From Aureimonas sp. SA4125 (GTDB taxonomy: Bacteria > Pseudomonadota > Alphaproteobacteria > Rhizobiales > Rhizobiaceae), in contig NZ_AP025032.1 in the NCBI RefSeq assembly GCF_019973775.1, forward strand, positions 2,542,001-2,606,000: a DNA stretch of 64,000 bases, written 5' to 3'. Each line of letters starts with the position of its first letter. Positions within the stretch are counted from its first letter, which is position 1. Of this stretch, positions 10,661 to 33,533 are shown piece by piece. The notes beneath the pieces are model-generated. The model made no database searches and was not told the DNA's origin. It saw nothing but the letters and a program-made list of their open reading frames with translations. The translations under genes and the position numbers were made by a program.

Positions 10661-11407
10661 TTAATGCCGCACCATCCCCGCATCGACATTGATGGTTTGG
10701 CCGGTCATCCAGCGCGCATCGTCTGACGCCAGAAAGGACACCACGTCGGCGATGTGCTCGGGTTGGCCCTTGCCTTTCACCGCCTGCAGCATCTCCACGA
10801 ACTCGAAGGCGCCGTTGTGCGGGCTGATCTTGACGCCTTCGCTCTCGATCAGGCCGGGCGTGACCGCATTGGCGGTGATGCCGTGCTGGCCGAGTTCCGT
10901 CGCCAGTGCGCGTGTGAAGCCGATCACACCGCCCTTCGCGGCCACATAGGCGGCCATGTTGGGCGTGCCGGCGAAGAAGGTGTTGGAGGCGATCGAGATC
11001 ACCCGCCCGGCCTTCTTCTTCGCGCGCATCTGGTCCGTCGCGGCGCGCGTGACGATGAAGGTGCCGGTGAGGTTGACGTCGATGATCTTGCGCCAATGGG
11101 CGAGATCGACGTCGTCCCATGCCACGAAAGGCACGATGGACGCGTTGTTGACGAGGATATCGACGCCACCCGTCCTGCTGTCGATCTGCGCCAACATGGA
11201 GGCGACGGCGTCGGGATCCGAAATGTCCGCCGTGATGGCAAAGGCCCCCTGGCCGATCGCTTCGGCAGCGGCGACAGCGCCTTCCGCGTTGACGTCGCTC
11301 ACCACGACCGTCGCGCCATCGGCCGCCAACCGTGCGGCGATCGCCTTGCCGATACCCTGTGCCGCGCCTGTGACCAGCGCCGTGCGCCCTGAAAGTCTTC
11401 CGCTCAT
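10661..11407 (-). CDS. Pyridoxal 4-dehydrogenase (short-chain dehydrogenase)
   Basis: Oxidises pyridoxal to 4-pyridoxolactone with NAD. Classical SDR features are [15 protein letters not shown] (cofactor), VNNASIV, and the catalytic Tyr/Lys in AAYVAAKGG. The stretches [20 protein letters not shown] and [20 protein letters not shown], and the 248-residue length ending NVDAGMVRH, agree with my memory of the structurally studied Mesorhizobium loti enzyme (mlr6807). GGAG precedes the start. It is the last gene of a run aminotransferase - dehydrogenase and lactonase, the same trio as in M. loti, which makes the specific call firm rather than a generic SDR. Confidence 0.9.
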
Positions 11408-11419
11408 CCTGATCTCCTG

Positions 11420-12607
11420 TTAGCCGACGGGTTCATCTGCGTTGATTTCGGCGATCGCGGCCGCGACGCCGGCCGCCGTATCTGTCTTGGCGCCGGCCGC
11501 CTCGAGCGTGCCGCCGACAGCCGCAAGCGCGGCGATGGCGTAGATCGGCTGGGCTGTCGGCCCCATGTGACCGATGCGCGTCAGCTTGCCGAGGGTCTCT
11601 CCCCGACCCGACGAGAAGACGACGCCAAAGCGCGAACGCACCTCGCGCCGAAGCGCCGCCTCGTCGATGCCTTGCGGCGTCCTGAACGCGGTGGTCGTCG
11701 GCGAGGCGATCTCTTCGCGCGCCGCCCAGATTCCGAGCCCCATGGCGCGCAGGCCTGCCCGCGTGGCTTTCGCGGTCAGCTCGTGCCGCGCCCATACCGT
11801 CTCGGGGCCCTCGGCGAGATAAAGGTCGAGCGCCCCGTCAAGGCCGTTCATCTCGGCGACCGACGGCGTAAAGGGAAAGGGCTCCGTGCGCGACCAGGCG
11901 TTCTCCCAGTCGAGGATCGACAACATCGAGGCGCGCGGGGCCGCCGGATTGGCCTTCATCTTGTCCCAGGCGCGGGGGCTCACCCCCATCATGGTCAGGC
12001 CGGGGGGCGCGCCGAGGCACTTGCTCGGTCCGGTGACGTAGATGTCGGCCCGGCAATCCTCCGGGTGGGTCTTCATGCCGGCGAAGGACGACACGGCGTC
12101 GACGATCAGATAGGCGCCGTGTTCGGCGACCACCGCACCGATCTCGTCGATCGGGTTGATGGTGGCGGAAGGCGTGTCGTGATGGCAGACCGAGACGACC
12201 GACACCTCGGGATGACGCGCCAGCATGTCGCGCACGGCCTGCGGGTCGATCGCCTCGTTATAGGCGGTCTCGATCTCGAGCAGATTGGGCGAATAGCGCT
12301 TCGCCCAGTAGCCGAAGCCCTTGCCATAGACACCAGAGGCGAGGTTGAGCACCGTGTCGTCGGGCGTAATGAGCGACGCCGCCGCGGCCTCGAGCCCCAG
12401 CACCGGCTCGCCATGCAAAATGACCGGCTTGGTCGACAGCCGCATCGCCTTCTGCGTCTTTTCGACAACCTGTTCGTAGAACAGCTGGAAGGCCGGGTCG
12501 TAATCGTAGAGCACCGTGCGACCGAGCGCCTGCAGGACCTCGGGATAGGCGTTCACCGGGCCGGAGGTCAGCGTCATCACCGGCTTGTCGTGGTCTGAAT
12601 AGCGCAT
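11420..12607 (-). CDS. ppaT: Pyridoxamine-pyruvate aminotransferase
   Basis: Converts pyridoxamine and pyruvate into pyridoxal and L-alanine, feeding amines into vitamin B6 degradation. It is a fold-type I aminotransferase without bound PLP cofactor; the reactive lysine lies in TGPSKCLGAPPGLTMMG. The N-terminal MRYSDHDKPVMTLTSGPVNA and the stretch SGVYGKGFGYWAKRYSP agree with the M. loti enzyme (mlr6806) as I recall it. I chose ATG 12607 with GGAG 8 bases upstream; a GTG at 12616 lies too close to that site. 395 residues. It sits 12 bases before the dehydrogenase gene and 24 bases after the lactonase gene. Confidence 0.9.
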   Translation of the reverse strand: MRYSDHDKPVMTLTSGPVNAYPEVLQALGRTVLYDYDPAFQLFYEQVVEKTQKAMRLSTKPVILHGEPVLGLEAAAASLITPDDTVLNLASGVYGKGFGYWAKRYSPNLLEIETAYNEAIDPQAVRDMLARHPEVSVVSVCHHDTPSATINPIDEIGAVVAEHGAYLIVDAVSSFAGMKTHPEDCRADIYVTGPSKCLGAPPGLTMMGVSPRAWDKMKANPAAPRASMLSILDWENAWSRTEPFPFTPSVAEMNGLDGALDLYLAEGPETVWARHELTAKATRAGLRAMGLGIWAAREEIASPTTTAFRTPQGIDEAALRREVRSRFGVVFSSGRGETLGKLTRIGHMGPTAQPIYAIAALAAVGGTLEAAGAKTDTAAGVAAAIAEINADEPVG

Positions 12608-12631
12608 GTCCTTCACTCCACTTAGTCGGCC

Positions 12632-31496: not shown

Positions 31497-32871
31497 GGTA
31501 GTGTCCGCGCTCGTGGTGGAAATTCCGACATTGAAAGGTGTGGCTGAGGCGGTCACCGGATAGGGCGGCTAAGGTGGAGTTGCGAGACTTCAACCTGACC
31601 GGAGAACCCGATGACCGAGGACAGACTACCGCTTGCCGAGCTTTTTGCGAAAGCCGGGGACGGCGATTTCCTGAGAACGATAGCCGAGAGCGTGATGCAG
31701 CTCCTTATGGAGGTCGACGTTGAAGGCATGATCGGCGCCGGGCGCCACGAACGGACGCAGGAACGGGCGACTTATCGCAATGGCTACCGCGACCGCTCGC
31801 TCGACACGCGGCTCGGCTCGTTGCAGCTTCGGATACCCAAGCTTCGGCAGGGCAGCTACTTCCCGCCGTTCCTGGAGCCGAGAAAGCTCTCGGAGAAGGC
31901 CTTGGTTGCCGTCATTCAGGAAGCTTGGATCAGCGGCGTTTCCACCCGGCGGGTCGACGATCTGGTACAGGCCATGGGGCTGTCGGGGATCGGCAAGAGC
32001 ACCGTATCGAAGCTGTGCAAAGACATCGACGAACGCGTCGGCGGCTTCCTCGACCGTCCTCTCACTGGCGACTGGCCCTACCTCTGGCTGGATGCGACCT
32101 ACCTGAAGCAGCGCGAGGGTGGACGCATCGTTTCGGTCGCCGCCATAATCGCCGTGGCCGTGAACACGGACGGCAAGCGCGAGATCGTCGGCCTTCACAT
32201 CGGCCCCTCGGAAGCGGAGACGTTTTGGTCGAGCTTCCTCAAGAGCCTCGTGCGCCGCGGCCTGTCCGGCGTGAAGCTCGTGATCTCGGATGCTCACGAA
32301 GGGCTGAAAGCCGCCATTCGCCGGGTGTTCAGCGCCTCCTGGCAGCGCTGCCGGGTGCATTGGATGCGCAACGCCCTGTCGTATGTCCCGAAGGCGCAGC
32401 AGAGCATGGCGGCGGCCGCGCTGCGCCAAGCCTTCGCCCAGCCCGATCGTGCTAGCGCCAGCCAGGCGCTGCGCCACGTCGCCGACCAGCTTCGGGGAAA
32501 GTGTCCAAAGCTCGGGGCCTTCATCGACAACAGCGAGACCGACGTGCTGGCGCACATGGATTTTCCCAGTCAGCACCGGACCCGGATCCATTCGACGAAT
32601 TCCCTGGAGCGCCTGAACAAGGAGGTGAAGCGGCGTGCCGACGTCGTCGGAATCTTCCCGAACGAGGGATCCATCATCCGGCTCATCGGCGCCGTCCTTC
32701 TCGAGGCCAACGACGAATGGCAGATCCAGAACCGCTACATGCAGACCGAACCCATGGCCGACCTCATGGCCATGGGCAACACTGCAAAACCCGAACAGAT
32801 TTCCACCGAAGTCGCCTGAAACGGAGCCGCTTCAGCTACACTCAATTTCCACCACGTTGACGGACACGACC
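31497..32871 (+). mobile_element. IS256-family insertion sequence (1375 bp)
   Basis: Terminal inverted repeats of 28 bp lie at 31497-31524 and 32844-32871 with about five mismatches; both read GTGTCCG near the outer end and CGTGGTGGAAATT at the inner end. Exact 8-bp direct repeats TTCAGGAC flank it at 31489-31496 and 32872-32879, fitting IS256 behaviour. It carries one intact transposase gene. It splits the pyridoxine 4-oxidase gene between codons 302 and 303. Confidence 0.95.
31611..32819 (+). CDS. IS256-family (mutator type) transposase
   Basis: DDE transposase of the surrounding element, 402 residues and apparently intact. Typical stretches are GRHERTQERATYRNGYRDR, LGSLQLRIPKLRQGSYFP, WLDATYLKQREGGRIV (first catalytic Asp), VKLVISDAHEGLKAAIRRV (second Asp), WQRCRVHWMRNAL, and RIHSTNSLERLNKEVKRR (catalytic Glu). 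GGAG lies upstream of ATG 31611. Confidence 0.96.
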   Translation: MTEDRLPLAELFAKAGDGDFLRTIAESVMQLLMEVDVEGMIGAGRHERTQERATYRNGYRDRSLDTRLGSLQLRIPKLRQGSYFPPFLEPRKLSEKALVAVIQEAWISGVSTRRVDDLVQAMGLSGIGKSTVSKLCKDIDERVGGFLDRPLTGDWPYLWLDATYLKQREGGRIVSVAAIIAVAVNTDGKREIVGLHIGPSEAETFWSSFLKSLVRRGLSGVKLVISDAHEGLKAAIRRVFSASWQRCRVHWMRNALSYVPKAQQSMAAAALRQAFAQPDRASASQALRHVADQLRGKCPKLGAFIDNSETDVLAHMDFPSQHRTRIHSTNSLERLNKEVKRRADVVGIFPNEGSIIRLIGAVLLEANDEWQIQNRYMQTEPMADLMAMGNTAKPEQISTEVA

Positions 32872-32879
32872 TTCAGGAC

Positions 32880-33533
32880 CACCTGCTCGGCGCCGGGAAC
32901 CTCTATGCGGCACGCAAGCCTGTCCCCCCGTCACGCCTCCAGCATTCCGAATCGATGGCCTATATGCGCGCCGGCGACTTTGCGGCCACCGGGCAGCCGG
33001 AAATCGTCGTTGGCTGCGGCGTCGCTCCGATCGTGTCCGAACGCTTCCAGGCGCCTGCCGCCGGCGCGGCGTACTCGCTGCTGTTCGGGATTACGCATCC
33101 AACGAGCCGCGGCAGTCTGCGCATCAGCGGCCCCGAGCTTGGCGATCCCCTGATCATCGACCCGGCCTATCTGCAAACCAGCCGCGACCGCGCCCTGTTT
33201 CGCCAGGCGCTCGAGGCCGCGCGCACGATCGGCCATCATGACGAACTCAACGACTGGCGCGAACGTGAACTCCTGCCGGGCAGGCTGAACAGCGCAGCCG
33301 AGGTCGACGACTTCGTCGCGCAGTCAGTCATCACCCACCATCATCCCTGCGGCACCTGCAGAATGGGCAAGGACGCGAACGCCGTCGTCGACGCCGATCT
33401 GCGGCTCATAGCGCTCGACAATCTTTTTGTCGTGGACGCATCCATCATGCCAAGCCTAACCGCGGGGCCCATTCACGCTGCCGTGCTGGTGATCGCAGAG
33501 ACGTTCGCCCGGACGATGAACGCCGAAAGCTGA
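32880..33533 (+). pseudogene. Pyridoxine 4-oxidase, 3' part (split by IS256-family element)
   Basis: Continues the GMC oxidoreductase after the element. Deleting the element and one target copy gives GRNLQD-HLLGAGNLYAARKP in frame, restoring a 519-residue protein. This part holds the C-terminal catalytic region, VITHHHPCGTCRMGKDANAVVDA (active-site His) and VVDASIMPSLTAGPIHAAVL. No other frame damage is visible, so the insertion is the only defect. An internal ATG at 32955 could start a fragment, but it would lack the FAD-binding domain. Confidence 0.92.

Follow-up and report, generated by a model that had tools for sequence, protein, structure and literature searches.

A vitamin B6 degradation cluster damaged by two insertion sequences in Aureimonas sp. 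SA4125, and a candidate third ring-opening route elsewhere in Rhizobiales

Does Aureimonas sp. SA4125 carry a complete pathway for the degradation of vitamin B6? The question is raised by a 64,000-nucleotide stretch of its genome (contig NZ_AP025032.1, positions 2,542,001 to 2,606,000; hereafter the window, to whose numbering all coordinates refer), where a first-pass annotation had placed, at 10661-33533, all nine enzymes leading from pyridoxine and pyridoxamine to succinic semialdehyde, including a split pyridoxine 4-oxidase (PNOX), along with transporters and a regulator of their own. According to the accessible part of PMC3538738, two routes of B6 catabolism are known, the genes of Mesorhizobium loti following the first (pathway I); what is available of PMC6253932 gives a consistent account of that pathway. 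The source genome amounts to 5.10 Mb in two contigs, the window lying on the large one. All nine enzyme families were found where they had been placed, eight of them as full reading frames, together with the genes of an ABC transporter (four) and a TRAP transporter (three), a regulator of the GntR/FCD type, a DUF1185 protein, a PEBP protein and two insertion sequences (IS). Most of the cluster genes lie on the minus strand, the regulator and PNOX on the plus strand. As judged from the sequence, the region very probably holds a pathway I cluster of the M. loti type that includes a GntR-type regulator and two uptake systems and has been damaged by the two IS. The cluster is of an already known kind.

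The names of the enzymes were exposed to a comparison with PDB, set as the test that could refute them, in which, for seven enzymes and the N-terminal piece of PNOX, the bits of the best match were weighed against those of the best match outside that enzyme. Scores to the pathway enzymes far exceeded those to other family members. On the minus strand, this applies to pyridoxal 4-dehydrogenase (PLDH, an SDR protein; 10661-11407; 3ndr, 438 bits versus 173 for the next match), pyridoxamine-pyruvate aminotransferase (PPAT; 11420-12616; 2z9u, 716 versus 131), 4-pyridoxolactonase (12632-13438; 3aj3, 491 versus 100), 5-formyl-3-hydroxy-2-methylpyridine-4-carboxylate 5-dehydrogenase (FHMPC dehydrogenase; 21546-22475; 4om8, 528 versus 165), 3-hydroxy-2-methylpyridine-4,5-dicarboxylate 4-decarboxylase (24286-25005; 2z7b, deposited as 'Mlr6791 protein', 463 versus 52), the ring-opening 2-methyl-3-hydroxypyridine-5-carboxylate oxygenase (MHPC oxygenase; 27580-28719; 3alj, 761 versus 77) and (E)-2-(acetamidomethylene)succinate (AAMS) hydrolase (28766-29641; 3kxp, 466 versus 65). 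The N-terminal part of PNOX reached 555 bits with 3t37 and 552 bits with 4ha6, versus 179 for the next match. Most of these pathway-enzyme structures, we presume, come from M. loti. NCBIfam cutoffs were also exceeded by PLDH (NF047923, 416 bits for a cutoff of 325), PPAT (NF046070, 650 for 600), 4-pyridoxolactonase (NF047925, 473 for 325) and FHMPC dehydrogenase (NF042925, 560 for 500). Note that a change from FW to TS before the PRVQR motif of MHPC oxygenase was considered as a sign of lost function and rejected, as Aureimonas glaciei is identical there and the loop is variable in relatives.

The ninth enzyme, 4-pyridoxate dehydrogenase (a GMC oxidoreductase; 22561-24177, minus strand), has no solved relative named for the pathway, its best PDB match being an 'oxygen-dependent choline dehydrogenase' (427 bits). 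It owes its name to its position and its conservation among relatives. Named species genomes were scanned with an alignment of FHMPC dehydrogenase, by a locus search using two peptide patterns from close relatives and covering flanks of 10 kb on either side; 133 loci were confirmed and 80 of them kept, of which 49 are of the window's kind (called classical below) and 31 of another kind (called variant). The protein found at the same position in all 49 classical clusters is 75-91% identical to the 4-pyridoxate dehydrogenase of the window.

The word 'complete', used in the first-pass annotation, does not survive a closer look at PNOX. The gene is indeed split, and the cause is an IS256-family element (31497-32871, plus strand; transposase at 31611-32819) placed within its frame, between a 5' piece (30585-31496, plus strand) and a 3' piece (32872-33533, plus strand) and flanked by a perfect 8-bp target duplication, TTCAGGAC. 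The family is indicated by the transposase (NCBIfam NF033543, 349 bits, cutoff 150), the imperfect terminal inverted repeats and the duplication, target duplications of 8-9 bp being usual for IS256. In relatives, the counterparts of the two pieces form one contiguous gene: both parts lie on one strand in 73 of the 80 loci and are contiguous in 72 of these 73, the exception (L112) showing a 171-bp gap in the alignment; the remaining seven loci have no PNOX match above 45% identity. The element is highly repeated: the genome has at least 40 full-length identical copies, its left 42 bp are found 54 times without mismatch, and identical copies of this sort are a known cause of misjoins. That its copy in PNOX is an assembly artefact is nonetheless scarcely credible, since each flank holds one half of the gene, order and frame being preserved, together with a perfect 8-bp duplication that a misjoin would not create.

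Could the pathway still work in full, from pyridoxine and pyridoxamine to succinic semialdehyde? The presence of all nine families in a conserved gene order speaks for it, but we consider it very improbable, because PNOX is broken by 1375 bp carrying their own transposase gene and target duplication, and because the four GMC matches in the genome include no second copy of PNOX. The genome has just two further GMC oxidoreductases, which share 36-38% identity with the N-terminal part of PNOX; a second PNOX-type oxidase was thus not found among the GMC matches, a search that did not extend to other kinds of pyridoxine dehydrogenase.

A second insertion, absent from the first-pass annotation and found in the follow-up, affects the decarboxylase gene. 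It is an IS66-family element (24994-26359, minus strand; transposase at 25025-26308) flanked on both sides by the 8-bp target duplication GGGTGAGT, 8 bp being the size of IS66 target duplications. Its 16-bp terminal repeats are perfect, and its transposase scores 265 bits with NCBIfam NF033517 (cutoff 180), so that transposase family, repeats and duplication all agree with IS66. The element separates the decarboxylase gene from its native start (ATG and first codons at 26360-26385, minus strand, in agreement with the gene start of A. glaciei) and supplies an in-frame start instead, a GTG located in the IS end from which the rest of the frame can be read; the predicted protein thus differs in its first residues only.

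Both IS are recent arrivals, given their many identical copies, the IS66 element being present in 15 full-length identical copies in the genome. The IS256-family element has undergone a recent burst in this 5.1-Mb genome; its closest relative in five other genomes of the genus is 88% identical over its full length, bearing in mind that draft assemblies lose repeats. One may ask whether selection on the cluster as a whole has been relaxed, so that the two IS mark the visible onset of its decay. From 69 copies, 0.31 would be expected to fall in 22.9 kb, and two are found there (Poisson P 0.04); only two Aureimonas genomes out of six, of which one is 65% complete, have FHMPC dehydrogenase above cutoff. 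Both points would suit such a decay. However, this P value is weak and was calculated after the hits had been seen, and the reading frames of eight enzymes, the transporters and the regulator are full, their products being 84-97% identical to those of A. glaciei. We therefore regard general decay as unlikely, and retain the picture of a conserved cluster hit by two recent insertions.

The claim that the cluster has its own transporters was borne out. The ABC transporter genes, all on the minus strand, encode permease 1 (13489-14424; NCBIfam NF047928, 562 bits, cutoff 465), permease 2 (14428-15519; Pfam BPD_transp_2), an ATPase (15516-17078; NF047930, 813 bits, cutoff 670) and a BMP/PnrA-type substrate-binding protein (17143-18195; NF047927, 498 bits, cutoff 400; Pfam Bmp); the three of the four subunits that were scanned with the NCBIfam equivalog models for the putative B6 ABC transporter all passed. 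They are followed on the same strand by the TRAP substrate-binding protein DctP (18697-19704; Pfam PF03480), the large permease DctM (19719-20990; Pfam PF06808, TIGR00786) and the small permease DctQ (20987-21466; Pfam PF04290). B6 transporters are poorly known, as stated in the accessible parts of PMC9997740 and PMC8427247, which name no catabolic B6 cluster.

The regulator that had been assigned to the cluster is likewise present, as a GntR/FCD-family protein (29814-30482, plus strand; Pfam PF00392 and PF07729). Between its gene and that of AAMS hydrolase lies a sequence (29666-29680, without assigned strand) with one mismatch to the 15-bp palindrome consensus GATTGTCAGACAATC. Allowing two mismatches and 400 bp upstream of the hydrolase match, the palindrome was found in the window and in 48 of the 49 classical loci, the region itself being absent from the remaining one (L080), and in none of the 31 variant loci. 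The window as a whole contains four matches at three mismatches, and as many occurred in 8 of 100 shuffles; the support for the palindrome thus comes from its conservation and position, not from its rarity in one genome. On these grounds, it is likely to be the operator of the cluster's GntR regulator, which would bind at 29666-29680.

How would the cluster operate? B6 vitamers would enter via the BMP-type ABC transporter and 4-pyridoxate, an acidic intermediate, perhaps via the TRAP transporter. Pyridoxamine would be converted by transamination, and pyridoxamine and pyridoxal would pass through 4-pyridoxolactone, 4-pyridoxate and the 4,5-dicarboxylate to ring opening, yielding succinic semialdehyde, acetate, ammonia and CO2, whereas the step from pyridoxine to pyridoxal would be lost. 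Any transcription of the genes from the decarboxylase downward would now have to pass through the IS66 element or start within it. The predicted substrate range is therefore pyridoxamine, pyridoxal or 4-pyridoxate at best, and not pyridoxine via the interrupted PNOX. Several points weigh against this picture of a damaged B6 cluster with its own uptake systems. The start derived from IS66 may work well, leaving the lower pathway perhaps unimpaired, and the genome may encode a pyridoxine dehydrogenase outside the GMC family. The assignment of 4-pyridoxate dehydrogenase relies on synteny, and the substrates of the transporters are deduced from gene neighbourhood; the ABC genes are not within 10 kb in 5 of the 49 classical loci, and the slot between the FHMPC dehydrogenase and BMP genes is occupied by TRAP genes in 22 of the 49 and by an NMT1/THI5-type ABC transporter in 27. 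For the window, the outcome is that a 'complete pathway' becomes a pathway just deprived of its pyridoxine entry step, with testable predictions on substrate range, operator and transporters.

The layout of the cluster was then compared with that of its relatives. Thirteen genes, from AAMS hydrolase to PPAT, have the same order and strand in 43 of the 80 loci, all classical, and the layout and size of the cluster are thus ordinary; PLDH was outside this comparison because it lies beyond the 10-kb flanks in classical loci. Among the other classical loci, five (from Martelella, a strain labelled Marinicella and Pseudooceanicola) have no ABC, lactonase or PPAT genes nearby, and L080 is interrupted by a contig end. 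The nearest relative is that of A. glaciei (L051), 84-97% identical in the shared genes and sister to the window in the FHMPC dehydrogenase tree. Two further statements of the first-pass annotation are not supported: once the two IS (2.7 kb) are subtracted, the supposedly 'more compact' cluster matches A. glaciei in order and spacing, and the transport genes with which it was said to be packed have equivalents in Mesorhizobium, whose clusters contain the same BMP-type ABC transporter and a second transporter in the TRAP slot. We accordingly rejected an unusually compact cluster, the spacing being the same as in A. glaciei and M. jarvisii, IS aside. A plasmid origin was also rejected, because the window lies on the large contig and FHMPC dehydrogenase has no match at E 1e-60 in a plasmid collection, which may omit near kin. 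The trait is patchy, FHMPC dehydrogenase being above cutoff in 7 of 60 relatives and in 10 of 397 genomes sampled from the order.

What distinguishes the variant loci from the classical ones? In the 49 classical loci, the decarboxylase, MHPC oxygenase, AAMS hydrolase, the AA_synth/DUF1185 protein (26928-27518 in the window, minus strand; Pfam PF06684) and the PEBP/YbhB-like protein (26442-26900, minus strand; Pfam PF01161) are all present; in the 31 variant loci, all five are missing, as is the window-type regulator, so that these genes are present or absent as one block. In their place, between the genes of 4-pyridoxate dehydrogenase and FHMPC dehydrogenase, variant loci have genes for a bicupin, an LVIVD-repeat beta-propeller protein, a RidA protein and a GST-like protein (e.g. 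positions 6564-9990 of L110, the locus of M. ciceri WSM1271, where the bicupin gene lies at 6564-7724). All four are found in 30 of the 31, the last (L130) lying at a contig end and showing the GST-like gene alone, and in none of the 80 loci do genes of both blocks occur together. The exclusion extends to whole genomes. MHPC oxygenase orthologues are absent from all 31 variant genomes, seven of which have a relative no more than 38% identical, and were found in six of six classical control genomes (79-97%); conversely, the bicupin is absent from all 49 classical genomes, ten of which have a relative of 31-38% identity, the control L110 being positive.

The same pattern was observed in an independent sample, the 397 genomes from the order, searched for FHMPC dehydrogenase at E 1e-120 or better. 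Eleven have this enzyme (G320 below the curated cutoff); six of them have MHPC oxygenase (83-100%), the other five have the bicupin (71-99%), and none has both or neither. Neither orthologue was found at these thresholds in the sampled genomes devoid of FHMPC dehydrogenase, three of which have an MHPC oxygenase relative of 40-43% identity (G340 and G356 have a second one). The hypergeometric P values, uncorrected for genome kinship, are 9e-11 and 6e-9 for the nesting and 0.002 for the lack of overlap within the eleven.

The history of the exchange was approached with quick trees, with SH-aLRT support only and a root that is not known, after dropping rows with less than 60% of the gene and PNOX matches below 45% identity. 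Both kinds of cluster occur among Mesorhizobium and Pseudohoeflea, and yet in the trees of FHMPC dehydrogenase (81 rows), 4-pyridoxate dehydrogenase (78) and the N part of PNOX (74), the split between classical and variant corresponds to a single change, with SH-aLRT of 99-100, so that each of these three enzymes follows the ring-opening block of its cluster. Alternatively, the enzymes of the variant clusters may have another specificity; the variant FHMPC dehydrogenases of four genomes (G050, G225, G235 and G305) still pass the equivalog cutoff. More changes are needed for the BMP protein (4), the ATPase (5), the permease (5), the lactonase (11) and PPAT (6), 3 or 4 of them being forced by strongly supported branches, which suggests that the transporter-lactonase-PPAT half recombines separately. 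Gene exchange in this right half of the cluster is also indicated by L105, a variant locus whose 4-pyridoxolactonase shares 93% identity with that of the window, against about 75% for most loci. By the logic of the block, the DUF1185 and PEBP proteins probably act in lower pathway I; the model of the DUF1185 protein (pLDDT 76 for the best of five models, 32 for the worst) resembles only the DUF1185 structures 3byq and 2qtp.

If the variant clusters have exchanged the genes for ring opening, what do they do instead? We think it rather probable that they represent a third route of B6 ring opening, in which the bicupin cleaves the dicarboxylate at C3-C4 to give pyruvate and C4/C1 units, the DUF1185 and PEBP proteins being parts of lower pathway I. 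The PDB relatives of the bicupin are a gentisate dioxygenase (3bu7, 176 bits) and a Pseudaminobacter enzyme deposited as gentisate 1,2-dioxygenase (116-119 bits), which we take to be the salicylate 1,2-dioxygenase (SDO). The protein was filed as neither a gentisate nor a 5-aminosalicylate dioxygenase because it falls far below the NCBIfam cutoffs (209 versus 442 bits for gentisate 1,2-dioxygenase and 202 versus 650 for the 5-aminosalicylate enzyme). Its residues H121, H123, H162, R129 and H164 are invariant in the 13 variant proteins aligned; they preserve H119, H121 and H160 of SDO, presumably the iron ligands, and R127 and H162, which we assume to be neighbouring residues.

The chemistry suggested by these relatives would fit the substrate on offer. 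The product of FHMPC dehydrogenase, 3-hydroxy-2-methylpyridine-4,5-dicarboxylate, bears the ortho hydroxy-carboxylate of salicylate, which gentisate/salicylate-type dioxygenases need and which the pathway I decarboxylase would remove. The bicupin would cleave this compound directly at C3-C4, ahead of any decarboxylation, and in the proposed route this order would explain why variant clusters have no decarboxylase. The ring-opened product would be an N-substituted 2-iminopropanoate, a class of compounds hydrolysed by RidA proteins; its hydrolysis, aided by RidA and perhaps by the propeller protein, would give pyruvate and aminomethylene-oxaloacetate, the latter losing ammonia, so that the variant route would yield pyruvate and C4/C1 units instead of acetate and succinic semialdehyde. 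The model of the propeller protein (mean pLDDT 79) is most similar to a beta-propeller phosphotriesterase (5hrm; 20% identity, rmsd 6.4, TM 0.71 by query); many propellers unrelated to it come next, and a metallohydrolase is suggested only weakly. No bicupin route for B6 was found among the matches listed in the literature searched, many subscription papers being out of reach, and the variant ring-opening gene set is apparently undescribed. Taken together, the comparison of clusters argues strongly, and in a form open to testing, that other Rhizobiales have a third way of opening the ring. B6 breakdown is among the best-studied cofactor catabolic pathways, the accessible part of PMC3538738 describing two routes. 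A third one in soil and symbiotic Rhizobiales, if real, would have arisen with the ring-opening half exchanged for unrelated enzymes; it would also add a new substrate for gentisate-type dioxygenases and help to find roles for the DUF1185 and PEBP proteins.

As to the other genes of the window, a Rieske oxygenase and its reductase are identified by Pfam at 2858-5224 and, we presume, resemble glycine betaine or carnitine systems. Beside PNOX, the region 34474-38771 contains a putative glutamine amidotransferase-like protein and an NMT1/THI5-type ABC transporter, whose genes (35437-38690) were considered as part of the B6 system and rejected, being 29-42% identical to their counterparts in Mesorhizobium clusters. 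Further on, 38934-60525 contains many catabolic genes, including those of a carbon-nitrogen hydrolase, a phosphotriesterase family protein and an amidohydrolase, as well as ABC transporters, a kinase and others that were read from translations alone.

How do these systems relate to those already described? Judging from the accessible parts of PMC3538738 and PMC6253932, all nine enzyme families of pathway I in M. loti MAFF303099 and Pseudomonas sp. MA-1 are common to the window, eight of them being intact there. The window differs from these systems in that PNOX is broken by the IS256-family element and the start of the decarboxylase is replaced by the IS66-family element, and its TRAP transporter takes the place of the NMT1/THI5-type ABC transporter found in most of the Mesorhizobium loci compared. 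The cluster of A. glaciei CGMCC 1.15493 (L051) has the same gene order as the window but no IS, its PNOX and decarboxylase genes being uninterrupted. The variant bicupin, which is not in the window, shares with gentisate, salicylate and 5-aminosalicylate 1,2-dioxygenases the bicupin fold, the iron-ligand histidines and the adjacent arginine and histidine and, unlike them, is located in B6 clusters. Finally, pathway II, described for Pseudomonas IA and Arthrobacter Cr-7 in the accessible part of PMC3538738, also opens the B6 ring oxidatively; its intermediates differ, whereas in the variant clusters the enzymes of pathway I are retained as far as FHMPC dehydrogenase.

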